Of a DNA stretch of 34,692 nt, positions 4,301 through 30,009 are shown one piece after another. A program made the translations under genes and the position numbers. Origin of the DNA: a virus; the IMG/VR virus record IMGVR_UViG_3300029258_000663, positions 1 through 34,692 of that record. One strand, written 5' to 3'. The notes beneath the pieces are model-generated. The model was given only the letters and a program-made list of their open reading frames with translations. It made no database searches and was not told the DNA's origin. Numbering within the stretch: position 1 is the first letter of the stretch; each line of letters begins with the position of its first letter.

Positions 4301-5314
4301 ATGGCAAGAGTACAGCGTGGAGACGTTGCGGGCATTGTTGTCCCTACTCCCGTTTCTGACGCAATCTTGCGTGGAGTGGCAGACCAGTCCATCATTCAGC
4401 GCCTGGCCAAGCCCGTGCCCATGAGTACCAATGCAAAGACCTTCCGTGAGGCGGAGGTCACTGGTGCTAATGCGTACTGGGTTGGTGAGGGTCAGCGGAA
4501 GCAGACTGACCAGCCCACCATGCAGCAACTGGCCTGGACCCTGACCAGCGCTGAGATTGCGGTAATCATCCCGATTGATGAGAATGTCGTGGACGATGCT
4601 GAAGCAGACCTTTTCGAGCTTTATAAGCCAGCCATTGAAACGGCTGTGGCTAACAAGCTGGATGCTGCTGCTATGTTCGGTAATGACGCTCCCACTGCGT
4701 GGGGCGCTGCCGGTACTGGCGCTCACATCGTGCCGGATGCTCTCATTGTCGGTAATGACTTTGAGGAAGATGCCAGCCCCACTGACCAGGAACTTTTGGA
4801 CCTGATTAGCGGCACTGGCGCCACCCCGGCAACCCCTGACGGCGCACTGGAGGCGCTTGAGGCTGACCTGTATGACCCGTCCCGTATCGTGGCGTACAAC
4901 CGTTTCAAGTCCCGTCTGCGTAACCTGAAGGATGCTGATGGGCGGTATTACTTCCAGGGCAGCAACGGCCTGCCGATTGTCCCTGAGGACCTTTTCGGCA
5001 TCGGCATTGAGTTTGCTTCCCATGAGAAGTCCACCAACGTCTGGCAACCGTCTGAGGCGCACCTGATTATGGGCGCCTGGGAGCAGGCATGGCTGGGTAC
5101 CCGCCAGGGACTCACGTACAAGGTCTTTGACCAGGGCGTGATTACTGACGGTGCTGGCAATGTCCTGTACTCGCTCATGGAGCAGGACATGGTTGCGCTG
5201 CGTGTGGTTGCACGCTACGCATTCAAGGTCATTGCGGATGACACTGCTGACGGCGCTAGCCTTGCCTCTGGTGAGGATTATCCGTTTGCTGTGGTCCGTC
5301 CGTACACGGCCTAA
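4301..5314 (+). CDS. major capsid protein, HK97 fold
   Basis: 337 residues, near the usual length of HK97-type capsid proteins lacking a delta domain. Family features: an N-terminal arm with IVVPTPVSDAILRGVADQSIIQRLAKPVP, an E-loop region with WVGEGQRKQTDQ, a spine helix (DLFELYKPAIETAVANKLDAAAMFG), and a late GTRQGLTYKVFDQ and ALRVVARYAFKV strand pair. It forms the capsid shell. Codon choice differs from neighbours (many CGT, CCG and TCC codons), fitting a very highly expressed gene. AGGAGG lies at the right distance before ATG 4301. Confidence 0.92.
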   Translation: MARVQRGDVAGIVVPTPVSDAILRGVADQSIIQRLAKPVPMSTNAKTFREAEVTGANAYWVGEGQRKQTDQPTMQQLAWTLTSAEIAVIIPIDENVVDDAEADLFELYKPAIETAVANKLDAAAMFGNDAPTAWGAAGTGAHIVPDALIVGNDFEEDASPTDQELLDLISGTGATPATPDGALEALEADLYDPSRIVAYNRFKSRLRNLKDADGRYYFQGSNGLPIVPEDLFGIGIEFASHEKSTNVWQPSEAHLIMGAWEQAWLGTRQGLTYKVFDQGVITDGAGNVLYSLMEQDMVALRVVARYAFKVIADDTADGASLASGEDYPFAVVRPYTA

Positions 5315-8926: not shown

Positions 8927-10939
8927 GTGGTACTGGCTGATGAGCTACTGCTAAAGGTACGTGCTGATACCAAGGGTGCGGAAAAGTCCGTAACTGGGTT
9001 TGCGGAGCATACCCGCACCAAGATGAAGCAGGTTAGCCAGTCATTCACCAATGCTGGGCGCTCGTTGACCACAAAGCTGACGCTGCCGATTGTCGGCCTG
9101 GCCACAGTGGCTGTCAAGAAATTCTTTGCCCAGGAAGTGGCTACTGCCAAGCTGCAGAGTAGCTTTGAATCCATGGGCGCATCAGCGTGGACATCCATGG
9201 ATGCACTGCAGGGACTGGCTGACAGCATCCAGGCCACCAGCACCTTTGGTGATGAGGCGGTGGAGTCCATGCAGGCGGTGCTGCTGACCTTTGGTCAAAT
9301 CAAGAATCAGGGTGAGGGTGCCAATGCTGTCTTTGACCGCACTACGCAGGTGACTGCTGATATGGCAGCCCTCATGGAGACTGACCTGCAGAGCGCAGCC
9401 ATCATGCTTGGCAAGGCGCTCAATGACCCAGTGGCTAACCTGGGTGCGCTGTCACGTTCTGGTGTGCAATTCACAGCAGACCAGAAAGAGCTTATCAAGG
9501 GCCTGTGGGAATCCGGTGACGCACTGGGCGCTCAGAAGGTCATCCTTGAGGAACTGGAACGCCAGTTTGGTGGCACGGCTGAGGCGGTAGCCAATACAGC
9601 TAGTGGTAAGTGGCAGCAGGCCATGAATAAGATGGGTGACAGCATGGAGATTGTTGGCGGCATCATTGCACCCATCGTGGTTGAGGTTGCCGACAAAATC
9701 AGTGAGCTTGCGGTGAGTTTTGACGGCCTGGATGAGAAATGGCAGCGGCTGATTGTGGGTGCCTCTGGCGGTGCTGCAGCCATCGGCCCACTGCTGCTGG
9801 TACTAGGCAACGCAGTCAAGGTGCTGACATTCCTGACCACTCCCATAGGACTCATCATTGCGGCCATTGCTGGCGTGGTCTGGGTACTGCACCAGATGGG
9901 CGTGGAATGGGAGGACGTTGTAAGCTGGATTCAGAACGTATTTCTGCCCACAGTGCAGCCCATCCTTGAGGAATTCCAGGCCATAGTCAGTGAGGTGCTG
10001 GGTAAGGTCACAGCTTGGTTTGAGGAAAACTGGGACACCATCATGGAAGTGGTTGAGAAGGGTGCCACGTTCCTGATGGACACATGGAATGAAATATGGG
10101 CAGTTATTGGGCCAGTCATTGAGAAGCTGGTGGCCTTTGCGGTTGAGGAAATCGGCGCCCTAATTCAGTGGTTCATTGACAACTGGCCACGCATCCAGGA
10201 AGTCATTGAGAAGGTCATGGGCATCATTCAGCGATTCTGGGAGCGCATCTGGGGCACAATCAGTGAATTCATTGGCCCCATCTTTGACGGCATCATGCGC
10301 ACCATCAGTGGCGCACTAGACATCATCAAAGGCGTCATCCAGACAGTGCTCAGCATCATCACAGGTGACTGGGGCGCTGCATGGGACGGCATCAAGCAGG
10401 CTGTCAGTGGCGCATGGGATGCCATCAATGGCGCAGTGGATACCGCATGGCAGACGCTGCAAGCTACGTGGGATACCATCATCAGCACCTTGGGCCTGGC
10501 CTGGGATACATTCTGGGGCGGTCTGGGTGAGGGCATTTCCGCCATCGGCACTGCGGTTGTGGATGCACTCAAGGGCGTCATAAATGCGCTCATTGGTGCA
10601 CTTGAGGATGGCGTCAACTTTGCGCTGCGTGGTCTACAGAAAGCCATAGATGCTGCAGACGTGATTGCTGGCCCATTTGTCAACTTCCCAGATGAGATGT
10701 TTACCCCCATCAGCATTCCAAGGCTGGCAGAGGGCGGCATAACCACAAGTGACGGCCCTGTGCGTGTGGGTGAGCGTGGCATTGAGGTGCTTAACTTGCC
10801 TGCGGGCACCAGCGTGCAACCACTGACTGGTAGCAACGGCAACGGTGCCACTGTCTACATTGACAAGATGATGGGCGGTGACCCCAAGGCAACGGCTGAT
10901 GAAATTGGCTGGGAATTCACTAAGCGTGGAGTGGCGTAA
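8927..10939 (+). CDS. tape measure protein
   Basis: 670 residues, the longest gene in the window, from GTG 8927 after GGAGGTGAGG. It sets tail length and exits through the tail during DNA injection. Features: an N-terminal helical region with FTNAGRSLTTKLTLPIVGLATVAVKKFF and TFGDEAVESMQAVLLTFGQIKNQG, typical of phage tape measures; hydrophobic segments at about 280-330 (LLLVLGNAVKVLTFL, GLIIAAIAGVVWVL); then Trp-rich repeats (WNEIWAVIGPVIEKL, WERIWGTISEFIGPIF, WGAAWDGIKQAVSGAW). At roughly 0.15 nm per residue the tail would be about 100 nm. The C-terminal GIEVLNLPAGTSVQPL is a usual tape-measure ending. No lysozyme or peptidase motif seen. Confidence 0.9.
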   Translation: MVLADELLLKVRADTKGAEKSVTGFAEHTRTKMKQVSQSFTNAGRSLTTKLTLPIVGLATVAVKKFFAQEVATAKLQSSFESMGASAWTSMDALQGLADSIQATSTFGDEAVESMQAVLLTFGQIKNQGEGANAVFDRTTQVTADMAALMETDLQSAAIMLGKALNDPVANLGALSRSGVQFTADQKELIKGLWESGDALGAQKVILEELERQFGGTAEAVANTASGKWQQAMNKMGDSMEIVGGIIAPIVVEVADKISELAVSFDGLDEKWQRLIVGASGGAAAIGPLLLVLGNAVKVLTFLTTPIGLIIAAIAGVVWVLHQMGVEWEDVVSWIQNVFLPTVQPILEEFQAIVSEVLGKVTAWFEENWDTIMEVVEKGATFLMDTWNEIWAVIGPVIEKLVAFAVEEIGALIQWFIDNWPRIQEVIEKVMGIIQRFWERIWGTISEFIGPIFDGIMRTISGALDIIKGVIQTVLSIITGDWGAAWDGIKQAVSGAWDAINGAVDTAWQTLQATWDTIISTLGLAWDTFWGGLGEGISAIGTAVVDALKGVINALIGALEDGVNFALRGLQKAIDAADVIAGPFVNFPDEMFTPISIPRLAEGGITTSDGPVRVGERGIEVLNLPAGTSVQPLTGSNGNGATVYIDKMMGGDPKATADEIGWEFTKRGVA

Positions 10940-20957: not shown

Positions 20958-21794
20958 GTGGATTTTGACCAAGTACAGCAGTGGCTAGAGGCCCAATATG
21001 ATGACGGTGATGAGCTTGAGTTAGTGGCCATCAAGGGTGGGAACGCACGGCGCAAGACCTTCAGATATGGCGGGCCTAAGCACACGTACAACGGTATGCA
21101 GACTCTGGACATTCTGCAAGCCATTGAGGCCTTTGAGCAGCACGGCTTTGACGTGTACGCCAGCGCCATGCCCCTGAGCTACCAGCATGCTGAGATGTAT
21201 GACAGAGTGTGGGTGGACCAGGATGACCTGAATGGGCCATGGCCCTGGGGCACTGATGCTGACCTGCAATGGCCCCAGCCCACTACGCTGGTCAAGACTA
21301 GTGAGGAAGGCGGCAGCTTTCGCTGGCAGGCCATCTGGCACTTGAAAGAAAGTCTGACCGTGGAGGAAGGGCGCAGCACCATGAAGCGGCTGGCTGCCCA
21401 GATTGGCGCAGACCAAAAGGTGCATGACCCCAGGCGTATCCTGCGTGTACCAGGGGTCATCAATGCCAAGCGTGGGATGATGGCAAGGTACCTGGGCGGC
21501 AGCACAGAGCGCATCAGCGTGGACGCATTCAACATTCCCAAAGAAACCCTGGTGCAGCAGTTGCTGGGCCAGCAAGTGAGCAAGCCCCAGGCCATCCTGG
21601 GTGAGTGGCTGGGCGGCTTTGAGGAAGGTGAGCGGAACCAGAAAGCGTACATCTGCGCACGATTCCTGCGGTCCTGTGAGGTAGGCTTTGAGGATGCGCT
21701 GGCCATTGTCAACGTGGGCGCCAGCAGGTGCCAGCCACCCATGGATGAGCAGGAGGTATGGAACGCAGTGAGGTCTGCATACCATGCGGGATGA
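20958..21794 (+). CDS. AEP-type primase
   Basis: 278 residues from GTG 20958, with CAGGAG upstream. DRVWVDQDD gives Asp87 and Asp89, the metal-binding pair of archaeo-eukaryotic primases; SFRWQAIWHLKESL is the strand after it (the usual catalytic His is not obvious there), and DPRRILRVPGVINAK matches the D-x-x-R-x-x-RVPG block found in prim-pol type phage proteins. The C-terminal AYICARFLRSCEVGFEDALAIV..WNAVRSAYHAG resembles the PriCT-1 helical domain. Works with the helicase encoded next, with which it overlaps by 11 nt. Confidence 0.72.
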   Translation: MDFDQVQQWLEAQYDDGDELELVAIKGGNARRKTFRYGGPKHTYNGMQTLDILQAIEAFEQHGFDVYASAMPLSYQHAEMYDRVWVDQDDLNGPWPWGTDADLQWPQPTTLVKTSEEGGSFRWQAIWHLKESLTVEEGRSTMKRLAAQIGADQKVHDPRRILRVPGVINAKRGMMARYLGGSTERISVDAFNIPKETLVQQLLGQQVSKPQAILGEWLGGFEEGERNQKAYICARFLRSCEVGFEDALAIVNVGASRCQPPMDEQEVWNAVRSAYHAG

Positions 21795-25658: not shown

Positions 25659-26333
25659 TTGGCACAGGGTGGTGATACTACTGCCACTGCTGACTTATAC
25701 TGGCGCATGCGGCCACTGGTGTATCATATCAGTCTGAAATACGGCCATAGGCATGGTGACCACAAGACAGAGGCCAGGCAGGAAATATTGCAGCAGGCGT
25801 GGAGTGGGTTGGCAGAGGCCATGAGTCGCTGGGACCCAGACCACCCAGTGGGCAAGACGTTCTGGAGCTATGCCAGCACCAGCATCACATTTGCTGTCAA
25901 AATGCACCTGGGTGCAGTCACTGGCGGTGTGCCGATGTCTAGGTACAATTATGAGCAGTATGTGCGCATAGTGCAATCACTAGAGGCTGCAGGCGTAGCT
26001 GACTGGGAAACGCTCAGCAGGGATGCATTGCACGCCATCACAGGTGTACGTGGTGCTCAGGACATCATGCGGGCACTACAGAGTAAGCAGGGGCATATAG
26101 TTGATGATGATTTGCGCACCAGTGCTGCCAGTGCTGAGGATGCGTACCTGGATGAGATGGCACAGGAGCAGTGGGCTGAGGTTGTGGCCTGGCTGCGTGG
26201 CCTGGAGGCCATACCATTTGAGCGCTGGGAGGAAGCAACGTACTGGAAGCTGGAGCAGTTGGGGCTGGCAGGCACCATTGAGGCCCAGCAACTAATTGAC
26301 AACCTGGACACCATACTGGAGGTGACAGCATGA
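25659..26333 (+). CDS. sigma-factor-like protein
   Basis: 224 residues from TTG 25659 (ATG 25707 is the alternative). Residues 14-90 resemble sigma-70 region 2: LYWRMRPLVYHISLKYG, EARQEILQQAWSGLAEAMSRWDPDHPVGKTFWSYASTSITFAVKMHLG, where the DP-x-x-x-x-G-x-TFWSYA-x-x-x-I block matches the core-binding and -10 segment (as in FDP-x-x-G-x-F-x-x-YA). A clear region 4 helix-turn-helix is not seen in the C-terminal half, which is helical and acidic. It may steer host RNA polymerase on its own or with a partner. It precedes the resolvase gene with ATGA overlap. Confidence 0.62.
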   Translation: MAQGGDTTATADLYWRMRPLVYHISLKYGHRHGDHKTEARQEILQQAWSGLAEAMSRWDPDHPVGKTFWSYASTSITFAVKMHLGAVTGGVPMSRYNYEQYVRIVQSLEAAGVADWETLSRDALHAITGVRGAQDIMRALQSKQGHIVDDDLRTSAASAEDAYLDEMAQEQWAEVVAWLRGLEAIPFERWEEATYWKLEQLGLAGTIEAQQLIDNLDTILEVTA

Positions 26334-26755
26334 GACTAGCAATCGACCCTGGCAAGGGCACAGGCATTGCGTGGCGGACTGAGGACGGTGAACTGCGGGC
26401 ACTACAGTGGCCAGGCGAATCCATCTGGGTGGTGCTCAATGGCTTCCACAGCACACACGGCATTACAGAGCTTGTGGTTGAGTCATTCATCAGCAGGCCT
26501 GGGCCAGCAGTCAACCTGAGCGCCACTGAGACTATCGGGCGCATTTTCGCATGGTGTGAGACTGAGGGCATTGACCCTATCATGCAAACGCCAAGCGCTG
26601 CCAAGGTACGTGTGACAGATGACCGGCTGCGGCAGGCAGGCGCCTGGATACGTGGCCAGAAACACGCACGTGATGCGTACAGGCACTTGCTGCTGCGTGA
26701 GGATAGGTGTGGTGAGATTGACCTGGAGCAGTGGCCCAAGACTTTGCCCAAGTAA
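26330..26755 (+). CDS. RuvC-like Holliday junction resolvase
   Basis: 141 residues. RNase H-fold motifs: LAIDPGKGTGIAW (Asp6), ITELVVESF (Glu51), and GQKHARDAYRHLLL (His112, Asp115) match the RuvC catalytic set. VNLSATETIGRIFAWCETEGI is the helix between them. It would cut branched DNA before packaging or in recombination, fitting its place at the end of the replication genes. Ends the replication operon; the largest noncoding gap follows. Confidence 0.8.
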   Translation: MRLAIDPGKGTGIAWRTEDGELRALQWPGESIWVVLNGFHSTHGITELVVESFISRPGPAVNLSATETIGRIFAWCETEGIDPIMQTPSAAKVRVTDDRLRQAGAWIRGQKHARDAYRHLLLREDRCGEIDLEQWPKTLPK

Positions 26756-26765
26756 CTAGTCAGAT

Positions 26766-26788
26766 GTGACTATTGCAAAGATAGTCAC
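26766..26788 (+). promoter_or_regulatory. 23-bp palindrome, copy 1
   Basis: GTGACTAT (26766-26773), 7 nt, ATAGTCAC (26781-26788), perfect arms. It ends 9 nt before the -35 of the promoter at 26798. The same arms, spacer length and distance recur at 27622. A dimeric regulator is expected to bind about 56 bp before the start of transcription, an activator-like position. Confidence 0.7.
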
Positions 26789-26797
26789 TGAAACCAC

Positions 26798-26826
26798 TTG
26801 ACTTTTGTGACTGGGTGGCCGATACT
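26798..26826 (+). promoter_or_regulatory. promoter of the structured leader and secreted-protein gene
   Basis: TTGACT (26798-26803), 17 bp, GATACT (26821-26826). Predicted start of transcription is near 26833, which makes a leader of about 320 nt before ATG 27152. A half site, GTGACT, of the palindrome lies in the spacer at 26807-26812. Confidence 0.65.
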
Positions 26827-26846
26827 ACTTATACATTGATAACTGA

Positions 26847-27142
26847 ATAGAGCACTCACAGAGATTCTGGGACTTGAGAAGGACCACCTAAGCGGCTCTG
26901 AGAAACTGACCCTGACGGCTAACGACCACCAGCCAGGTTTTGACTACCTGATGCGGACCCCTGAATGAAGGACAGTGGAGAGAATTATGCGGATGCGGTA
27001 GTGAGAGAATCAAGCCCACAGTGACCAGCAGAAAGTGAAACGCTACCCAGGCGCAGTGCACGGCCCTGGGATGTAAAGTAGCCAGTAGGCAGGAATCTGG
27101 CCCAGACTCTCCGTGAGTGCTCTATCAGACCAGTTGAGCACT
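26847..27142 (+). ncRNA. structured RNA leader with switch-like alternative hairpin
   Basis: The region has no ORF. A perfect 13-bp long-range stem joins 26847-26859 (ATAGAGCACTCAC) and 27113-27125 (GTGAGTGCTCTAT). It continues inward with GAG/CTC (26861-26863 and 27107-27109) and TCTGGG/CCCAGA (26866-26871 and 27101-27106) around a 2-nt bulge. Inside are hairpins CAGGT/ACCTG (26934-26950) and GCTA-CCCAGG/CCTGGG-TAGC (27042-27082), with purine-rich joining strands typical of folded RNAs. AGTGCTC (27116-27122) can instead pair with GAGCACT (27136-27142), which abuts the AGGAGG (27143-27148) of the gene at 27152. It could be a riboswitch-like leader or a processed small RNA. No known class is recognised. 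Confidence 0.7.
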
Positions 27143-27151
27143 AGGAGGTGC

Positions 27152-27613
27152 ATGGTGAGGAAATTGATGAGGAAAACGGCTGGCGCCCTGGCGCTCTTTG
27201 TCGTGATGAGTGTGGCGCCTGCGGCAATCGCTGATGATGCAGGCACACGGTATGATGACCCCATTGGCGCAGAGTGCGCATATGACGCTGAGAGCGCCAT
27301 TGTGAGCTTTGACGTTGAGGTAGATGGTGAGGCCATCTGGAGTGTGACGCAGGACGGCAAGGTGCTCACGTATGGTGAGGCTGACAACGCACCTGCGGGC
27401 GGCTACGTGCTTGTGGTTGACATTGAGCCTGGCAGCCCTGTGACGGCCTACGCCAACGGTGACCTGCGCACCTTCACCTGTGATGACGTGCGTGAGCCTG
27501 CGGACGGCCCCATTGCTGAGGTGCTGTATGAGCCTACCGTCAGCCCCATGACATTCCTGGGCTGGTATCGTGCTCTGTACGCCAAGGTACTGGGAGCGCT
27601 GGCAGCCCTGTAG
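27152..27613 (+). CDS. secreted protein, possible moron
   Basis: 153 residues from ATG 27152, with AGGAGG well placed; GTG 27113 in frame falls in the RNA stem and is rejected. Residues 1-28 form a clear signal peptide: basic start (MVRKLMRK), hydrophobic core (AGALALFVVMSVAP) and AIA cleavage site. The mature part is acidic and beta-rich with two Cys (in GAECAYD and TFTCDD) that may form a disulfide. The C-terminus (MTFLGWYRALYAKVLGALAAL) is hydrophobic and could contact the membrane. Own promoter, palindrome and structured leader. Exported phage proteins of this kind often change the host surface or block superinfection; that role is inferred. Confidence 0.7.
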   Translation: MVRKLMRKTAGALALFVVMSVAPAAIADDAGTRYDDPIGAECAYDAESAIVSFDVEVDGEAIWSVTQDGKVLTYGEADNAPAGGYVLVVDIEPGSPVTAYANGDLRTFTCDDVREPADGPIAEVLYEPTVSPMTFLGWYRALYAKVLGALAAL

Positions 27614-27621
27614 CCAGCAAG

Positions 27622-27644
27622 GTGACTATATCGGAAATAGTCAC
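27622..27644 (+). promoter_or_regulatory. 23-bp palindrome, copy 2
   Basis: GTGACTAT (27622-27629), 7 nt, ATAGTCAC (27637-27644), with one more G-C pair outside each arm. It lies 9 nt before the -35 at 27654, the same geometry as copy 1, so the two promoters probably share one regulator. As RNA it could also act as a 9-bp hairpin terminating the secreted-protein gene. Confidence 0.7.
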
Positions 27645-27711: not shown

Positions 27712-28032
27712 ATGAGCTACCGATACACCAAGCGCCAGGCATACGATTACCACGCAAACACAGTGGCCCATAGTGACCACAGCATTGAGCGGCACCTGGG
27801 CCGACTCACTGACCTTACTGCTGATGAGCGGGCACTGGTCAAGGACCGTGCACTGCAGGCAGCAGCCCACCCCAAGAATCGTGAGCACACTGGCGTGCGC
27901 ATCTTCACAGGCCACGGCCAGCACGTCTGGGCAGTGGTGGCAGGGCGCACAGTCAAGACCATCATCACCACACCTGAGGGCCAGCACCTTGACCAGACCA
28001 GCAAGTGCAACCGTTACGCCATCGTAGGATAG
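27712..28032 (+). CDS. hypothetical protein, 106 aa
   Basis: ATG 27712 with AGGAG 7 nt upstream; an in-frame start at 27622 lies in the palindrome and is rejected. Basic, His-rich N-terminal half (SYRYTKRQAYDYHANTVAHSDHSIERHLGRL), helix DERALVKDRALQAAAH, then a beta segment (GVRIFTGHGQHVWAVVAGRTVKTIITTP). No family recognised. First gene of the small-gene run reading to 30009, behind its own promoter; a candidate for the regulator that binds the palindromes, but no helix-turn-helix is evident. Confidence 0.65.
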   Translation: MSYRYTKRQAYDYHANTVAHSDHSIERHLGRLTDLTADERALVKDRALQAAAHPKNREHTGVRIFTGHGQHVWAVVAGRTVKTIITTPEGQHLDQTSKCNRYAIVG

Positions 28033-29289: not shown

Positions 29290-29446
29290 CCTACCCATTG
29301 ATGAGGCGGCAGTGGAGGCGGCACGCATGCTGCAGGCTGAAATGTGGCGCAACGGGCGCCAGCGGCCCACATACGCCAATAGCAGGATGCCTGAGGACCA
29401 AGGGCGCAGGCAGTTGGCGCAAGAGCTACGCAGGCGGCTGGGTTGA
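29276..29446 (+). CDS. hypothetical protein, 56 aa
   Basis: ATG 29276 overlaps the previous gene by 14 nt. Helical (IDEAAVEAARMLQAEMWRNGRQ) with a basic end (GRRQLAQELRRRLG). Its stop overlaps the TTG start of the sigma gene (TTGA), so it is coupled to sigma factor synthesis. Confidence 0.55.
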   Translation: MSTTSLPIDEAAVEAARMLQAEMWRNGRQRPTYANSRMPEDQGRRQLAQELRRRLG

Positions 29447-30009
29447 GGGACCTGGAGGACGCTGCCTGGCACGCAGCACGGAAGTACGGCCAGGACGCTG
29501 ATGACGTGCTGCAGAGCACGGCAGAGGCGCTGCTGAAAGCTGGGCACAACCTGAAGACGGTTGACCGGCCACTGGTGTACGTGTACGCAAGGAATGCGGC
29601 CATTGACATCTGGCGACGTGAGTCACACAGCACGCCATGGGATACCACCACAGATGCTCAGGGCAATGACGGCATCACAAGGCACACTCAGATGCTCCCA
29701 GACAGCCAGACTGAGGTTGACCTGGTGATGACACTGGAGGCCATCGTGCTGCCCCACATGGGCGCTCTGGAGGGCACACAGCGTGACGTGGCAGTGGCGT
29801 ACTACCTGGATGGGCTGGAAGGCCCTGAGATTGCGCAACGCCTGGGCCTGACCCCTGCCAATGTGCGCTACCATCTGAGCAAGGTACGCAAGACCCTGGG
29901 TGAGCATGAGGGTGACCTAGCCATCTATCGTGGCTGGGCGCACCCAGGAGCACACAAACCACTGAGGCGCCCACAGGCGTCTGAGGCCTTAGGGGCAGTA
30001 TTCTCTTAG
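29443..30009 (+). CDS. ECF-like sigma factor
   Basis: 188 residues from TTG 29443. Region 2: AARKYGQDADDVLQSTAEALLKAGHNLKTVDRPLVYVYARNAAIDIWRRES, with the D-x-x-DVLQ-x-T helix and the Y-x-x-ARNAAID-x-WRR helix of ECF sigma factors (-10 recognition). Region 4: TQRDVAVAYYLDGLEGPEIAQRLGLTPANVRYHLSKVRKTL, a clear helix-turn-helix for -35 DNA. A 60-residue linker joins them. The last codons and stop form part of late motif copy 5. It is the best candidate to read the CCAGTATTCTCTTAG sites. Confidence 0.82.
   Translation: MRDLEDAAWHAARKYGQDADDVLQSTAEALLKAGHNLKTVDRPLVYVYARNAAIDIWRRESHSTPWDTTTDAQGNDGITRHTQMLPDSQTEVDLVMTLEAIVLPHMGALEGTQRDVAVAYYLDGLEGPEIAQRLGLTPANVRYHLSKVRKTLGEHEGDLAIYRGWAHPGAHKPLRRPQASEALGAVFS
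29996..30009 (+). promoter_or_regulatory. repeated late motif, copy 5 (14 of 15 bases)
   Basis: CAGTATTCTCTTAG, with G instead of C at the first position. Its TAG is the stop codon of the sigma gene. It lies 85 nt before the gene at 30095, the same distance as copy 2 to the tail tube gene. It continues GTGAAAGCCAC as in copy 3. Confidence 0.65.

Follow-up and report, generated by a model that had tools for sequence, protein, structure and literature searches.

A 279-nt noncoding element of phage DNA, closed by a long-range stem (P1), belongs on comparative evidence to a hitherto unrecognised group of structured noncoding RNAs carried by many actinobacterial-type phages. It lies in an IMG/VR record of 34,692 bases, the whole of which is called the window here. 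We consider it probable that these phage-encoded RNAs are stand-alone molecules acting in trans, most likely as homodimers.

In the window the element is situated between a RuvC-like gene (26330-26755) and a small ORF (27152-27613, ATG at 27152) with a signal-peptide-like start, which has no Pfam match and, in its longer reading, no PHROG match. The first-pass annotation had reported a perfect 13-bp stem joining ATAGAGCACTCAC (26847-26859) to GTGAGTGCTCTAT (27113-27125), 253 nt apart, and its coordinates hold. The stem belongs to a 25-nt arm pair, 92% complementary, that was recovered at E = 8e-5 when the region was compared by BLAST with the whole record. The parts of the element and its leader are as follows.

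26798-26826, plus strand: promoter-like site TTGACT-17-GATACT (consensus match only)
near 26833, plus strand: putative transcript start, placed from the promoter-like site
26841-26845 with 27131-27135, plus strand: outer extra pairs of P1
26847-26871, plus strand: 5′ arm of the P1 terminal stem (inverted repeat and homologue comparison)
26873-26877, plus strand: 5′ arm of P2, CTTGA, partner 27010-27014 (helix 1 of alignment A1; covariance-model alignment of the window)
26905-26911, plus strand: 5′ arm of P3, ACTGACC, partner 26970-26976 (covariation)
26912-26929, plus strand: invariant core strand 1, CTGACGGCTAACGACCAC (homologue comparison)
26930-26958, plus strand: P4 hairpin, variable in length (helix 6 of A1)
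26959-26969, plus strand: invariant core strand 2, CCCTGAATGAA (homologue comparison)
26970-26976, plus strand: 3′ arm of P3, GGACAGT (covariation)
27010-27014, plus strand: 3′ arm of P2, TCAAG, after the conserved GAGnGAA strand (A1 and covariance-model alignment)
27025-27028, plus strand: 5′ arm of P6, CCAG, partner 27097-27100 (by eye in the window; rule-based test in homologues)
27046-27070, plus strand: P7 hairpin, CCCAGG/CCTGGG with a 13-nt loop (homologue comparison)
27056-27061, plus strand: self-complementary loop hexamer GTGCAC, proposed homodimer kissing loop (palindrome tests)
27097-27100, plus strand: 3′ arm of P6, CTGG (by eye in the window)
27101-27125, plus strand: 3′ arm of the P1 terminal stem (inverted repeat and homologue comparison)
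27136-27142, plus strand: GAGCACT, partner in the alternative hairpin of the first-pass annotation, unconserved in homologues

The surroundings of the element show two further features. The palindrome GTGACTAT-N7-ATAGTCAC occurs in two copies (0.07 expected by chance), one at 26766-26788, upstream of the putative promoter and some 10 nt from its -35, and the other at 27622-27644, upstream of the gene at 27712; the pair looks like the operator of a phage regulator. The phage may also encode its own sigma factors, as suggested by sigma-70-like ORFs at 25659-26333 and 29443-30009 (Pfam Sigma70_r2 just under the cut-off; PHROG sigma factor).

The predicted fold energy of the window element is unremarkable (z = -1.93; 6 of 100 shuffled sequences fold equally well). 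Since folding energy alone is weak evidence, the significance of the fold rests on homologues. A sensitive nucleotide search returned just a 32-nt match (E = 0.4), in 186 mycobacteriophages. In one of these, Yucca (Bixzunavirus, Cluster C), the match falls in a 358-nt intergenic gap, where a second matching block, GAACGAAGG...GTGGAG, is found in the same order as in the window. About 27 true homologues came from scanning IMG/VR with the 17-nt core CTGACGGCTAACGACCA, and scans with variant core letters added others. A scan with the pattern of the 3′ hairpin alone returned mostly the same loci and three new ones: L059, which has the core with one changed letter and was included in the covariance model R1, and L058 and L060, which are without the usual core and which R1 scores at E = 1.3e-11 and 2.3e-20, respectively. 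In all, 33 distinct sequences and two divergent ones were collected from IMG/VR and GenBank phages; the isolates carrying the RNA are about 190 Cluster C mycobacteriophages, Phabba and Myrna. The model R1, built without the window, detects the window at 82.9 bits (E = 4.8e-23; the E-values of the model are rough). Coding chance matches to the core 17- or 18-mer (L012, L037 and L038) reach about 12 bits or less in R1; these were dropped as chance matches, as were L030, L036, L052 and L055.

The family was encountered in phages only. The 18-nt core has no true match in 84,980 bacterial and archaeal genomes (two chance matches are coding), and a plasmid search gave nothing credible. The first-pass annotation had proposed an Rfam scan beside the covariance search: in the window and 17 homologue loci the element is unmatched, both at the gathering threshold and at E <= 10. 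Among described Rfam RNAs (tmRNA, introns, HEARO, 6S and others), none gave a covariance-model match to the element. The sole Rfam match among the 17 loci is a tmRNA elsewhere in L013, whose gene (10221-10616) is separated by about 0.85 kb from the RNA and shares its strand. Searches of viral contigs with the neighbouring proteins yielded one distant RuvC-like relative, without the RNA, and none for the polymerase. No description of the core sequence, or of a noncoding RNA in Cluster C, turned up in the literature searched; the coverage was incomplete and an earlier description is possible.

The homologues share an architecture of P1, P2, P3, an invariant core loop (CUGACGGCUAACGACCA / CCCUGAAYGAA), P6 and P7; measured from one outer end of P1 to the other, the RNA spans some 220-410 nt. 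P1 is mostly of 20-30 bp and its sequence differs in nearly every phage lineage. P2 comprises five pairs, both sides of which vary, and links the strand that precedes GAGGuaCC with the one that follows GAGnGAA. On either side of the core is P3; the core's two nearly invariant strands stand opposite one another and are closed by the P4 hairpin; the P4 region between them ranges from about 21 to 121 nt. P6 and P7 make up the 3′ arm.

Compensatory changes in the long stem, whose absence the first-pass annotation had named as refuting, are found among the homologues. The self complementarity score of P1 is 36.8, vs. 16.4 ± 3.4 between genomes. In P3, 174 of 198 pairs are Watson-Crick, compared with 90 ± 6 when the arms are dealt among homologues (maximum 116 in 10,000 shuffles). 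In alignment A1, which leaves the window out, 91.4% of the cells are paired (67.3 ± 1.1 when shuffled, 34-42% when slid), and double changes are seen in 188 cells vs. 58 in the control. P6, with positions fixed relative to P1, has 81 of 120 pairs vs. 57 ± 5 (shuffle maximum 75); by free local alignment it is not significant. RNAalifold, applied to 22 homologues without the window, predicted 38 pairs, 30 of them with compensatory changes; the counting controls are the A1 figures just given, and R1 was made from these homologues. Helix 2 of A1 is rich in G-U pairs, which favours RNA over DNA. What these comparisons show is a branched fold closed by P1. One arm, a P2-P3 rod, presents the invariant internal loop and is capped by the variable P4; the other, P6-P7, terminates in a palindromic loop.

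The P7 loop carries a hexamer that changes in sequence among the homologues and keeps its self-complementarity: UGCGCA, UGGCCA, CUGCAG, UUGCAA, GUGCAU, GUGCAC, GACGUC and AUGCAU are found in the family, usually with purines on the 5′ side. In A1 the hexamers are GTGCGCAC (nine times), GTGGCCAC (five), GGTGCATC (four), GCTGCAGC and GTTGCAAC; in two rows that are out of register in A1 the hexamers (GACGTC and GTGCAC) are also palindromes. Self-pairing holds in 95.5% of the loop cells, a value reached in none of 500 shuffles, and no other set of hexamer columns does as well as that of P7 (91% self-complementary, the next 45%). Neighbouring columns of the loop exchange GC (11) for CG (9). As neighbouring bases cannot pair inside a hairpin, this swap indicates pairing between two molecules. 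A palindrome so maintained makes a homodimer, formed through kissing of the P7 loops, the most likely reading of the comparative data. It should be noted that a protein-bound palindrome at the level of DNA could in principle keep self-complementarity likewise.

How might such an RNA work? It would be transcribed during infection and would either be excised at the P1 duplex, a substrate of the RNase III type, from a longer transcript or be made from its own promoter. The protected dimer could then persist and work in trans, and not as a control of the following gene. By analogy only, the dimer would most likely serve as a scaffold or decoy. One form of this proposal, to which we give somewhat less than an even chance, is an RNA-only homo-oligomer present during infection, in which P7 provides a two-fold contact, other conserved loops possibly provide further ones, and the resulting small particle shelters or sequesters a host factor.

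Overlapping with the trans-acting dimer, and distinctly less probable, is a guide, scaffold or decoy RNA that works as a ribonucleoprotein with a host defence nuclease, the ribosome, RNA polymerase or a phage enzyme, the dimer serving the protein. The invariant unpaired core strands and the phage-only distribution would suit such a partnership. Against it, no gene co-occurs with the RNA: no shared or recurrent neighbour was found among the homologues in the available flanks, which average about 3 kb and are short in many contigs. Any partner would thus be host-encoded or unlinked.

The first-pass annotation had proposed a switch ahead of a secreted-protein gene. In a cis-acting, riboswitch-like leader of this kind, a ligand on the invariant core would choose between P1 and a hairpin by the ribosome site of the following gene. 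The alternative pairing is present in the window: AGTGCTC (27116-27122) matches by complementarity GAGCACT (27136-27142), immediately ahead of AGGAGG at 27143-27148. In addition, the invariant internal loop resembles a binding pocket, and the RNA ends 26 nt ahead of the start codon. Among the homologues, 12 of 28 have a gene with a ribosome-binding site beginning within 60 nt downstream; this is expected of compact phage genomes, and it leaves room for a role in cis. The 7-bp complementarity is near chance on its own (p = 0.06), at least 7 nt of it are retained in just 3 of 28 homologues, and at -9.1 kcal/mol it falls short of P1 (-38.6 kcal/mol) by about 29 kcal/mol. An intrinsic terminator follows the RNA in 0 of 28. 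The downstream genes are mutually unrelated, and the association with a gene family expected of a riboswitch is lacking; Myrna and Phabba have their next annotated gene beginning well downstream of the RNA. The promoter that the annotation had also claimed has a promoter-like counterpart in the window; among the homologues a promoter-like -10 (5 of 6 letters) precedes P1 in 9 of 28, not above shuffles. With the hairpin unconserved and outweighed by P1, no terminator, and following genes that differ between phages, a cis switch is unlikely. Of the earlier alternatives, a riboswitch-like element or a structured small RNA, the structured phage RNA is strongly supported and the switch is unsupported.

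Still less probable is a role in the replication of phage DNA, as RNA primer or regulator. Such a role is known from non-RepA extrachromosomal mycobacterial prophages, which require a noncoding RNA for replication (PMC7157519), and a DNA polymerase is encoded nearby in the window. The RNA of those parABS prophages, required for extrachromosomal replication, sits beside parABS; no replication neighbour family recurs here. LordLeafolot belongs to Cluster C, the type of phage in which the RNA occurs, and has been described as strictly lytic (PMC13014143), and a long sealed P1 would be unsuited to a primer. A functionless chance inverted repeat, to which only the mild stability of the single-sequence fold lends any colour, is refuted by all the covariation tests and the independent covariance-model match.

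The RNA is unannotated in the roughly 190 sequenced mycobacteriophages that have it. In Yucca, where P1 from end to end encloses about 406 nt, it occupies 21,358-21,763 of KX721255.1 (L004:1448-1853), and the annotated start of gene 66 (L004:1733) falls inside it. An in-frame ATG at L004:1892, just past the RNA and after a perfect AGGAGG, is a better start, which corrects the existing annotation (L004 1733-1891 corresponds to KX721255.1 21643-21801). Gaps of 703 nt in Myrna and 588 nt in Phabba, for which there was no other explanation, are filled by the RNA. The roughly 190 mycobacteriophages grow on M. smegmatis, making the family genetically accessible in Mycobacterium smegmatis phages and the purpose of self-assembling phage RNAs directly testable. 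If an RNA-only homo-oligomer does form, it would add one more independent family to such RNA assemblies, and the easiest one for genetics.

The contact proposed for P7 is analogous to the dimerisation initiation site of HIV-1, a hairpin loop with a purine-flanked palindromic hexamer in an unrelated RNA. Riboswitches share with the new RNA an invariant unpaired core within a closed stem and, often, a gene downstream; the new RNA differs in having neither a gene-family association nor a conserved expression platform. Among the closest parallels are GOLLD and ROOL. These structured noncoding RNAs of large size are found in phages and prophages, form homo-oligomers through self-interacting kissing loops and often lie near tRNA islands (PMC12286853). 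The new RNA resembles them in its phage-only occurrence, its palindrome-loop covariation and the variable hairpin between its core strands, which recalls their variable linker. It differs in size (about 220-410 nt vs. about 660 to over 800), in its conserved core, in lacking an Rfam match and in the single symmetric contact seen. tRNA adjacency was seen in a minority of the family: tRNA genes adjoin L024 and surround L058, whose divergent member without the usual core (4432-4695) lies within a tRNA array, and none were seen in the window or at most loci, in flanks that are short. Support for the homodimer of OLE comes from one loop whose palindrome switches from GGCC to GAUC or AGCU (PMC12286853), the same type of evidence as presented here, whereas OLE is bacterial and has proposed protein partners. 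The palindrome-swap argument has been used for both OLE and GOLLD, where the contacts are visible in cryo-EM (PMC12286853); the oligomer proposed here is read from sequence. The Rfam models of GOLLD, ROOL and OLE do not reach the gathering threshold in the window and 17 loci. Palindrome switching in a kissing loop, by which homo-oligomeric ornate RNAs are recognised (PMC12286853), is found in P7. A stand-alone homodimeric phage RNA, analogous to GOLLD, ROOL and OLE and unrelated to them in sequence, fits best. GOLLD and ROOL have striking structures and a puzzling role, and a compact, unrelated family now shares their signature of self-association.
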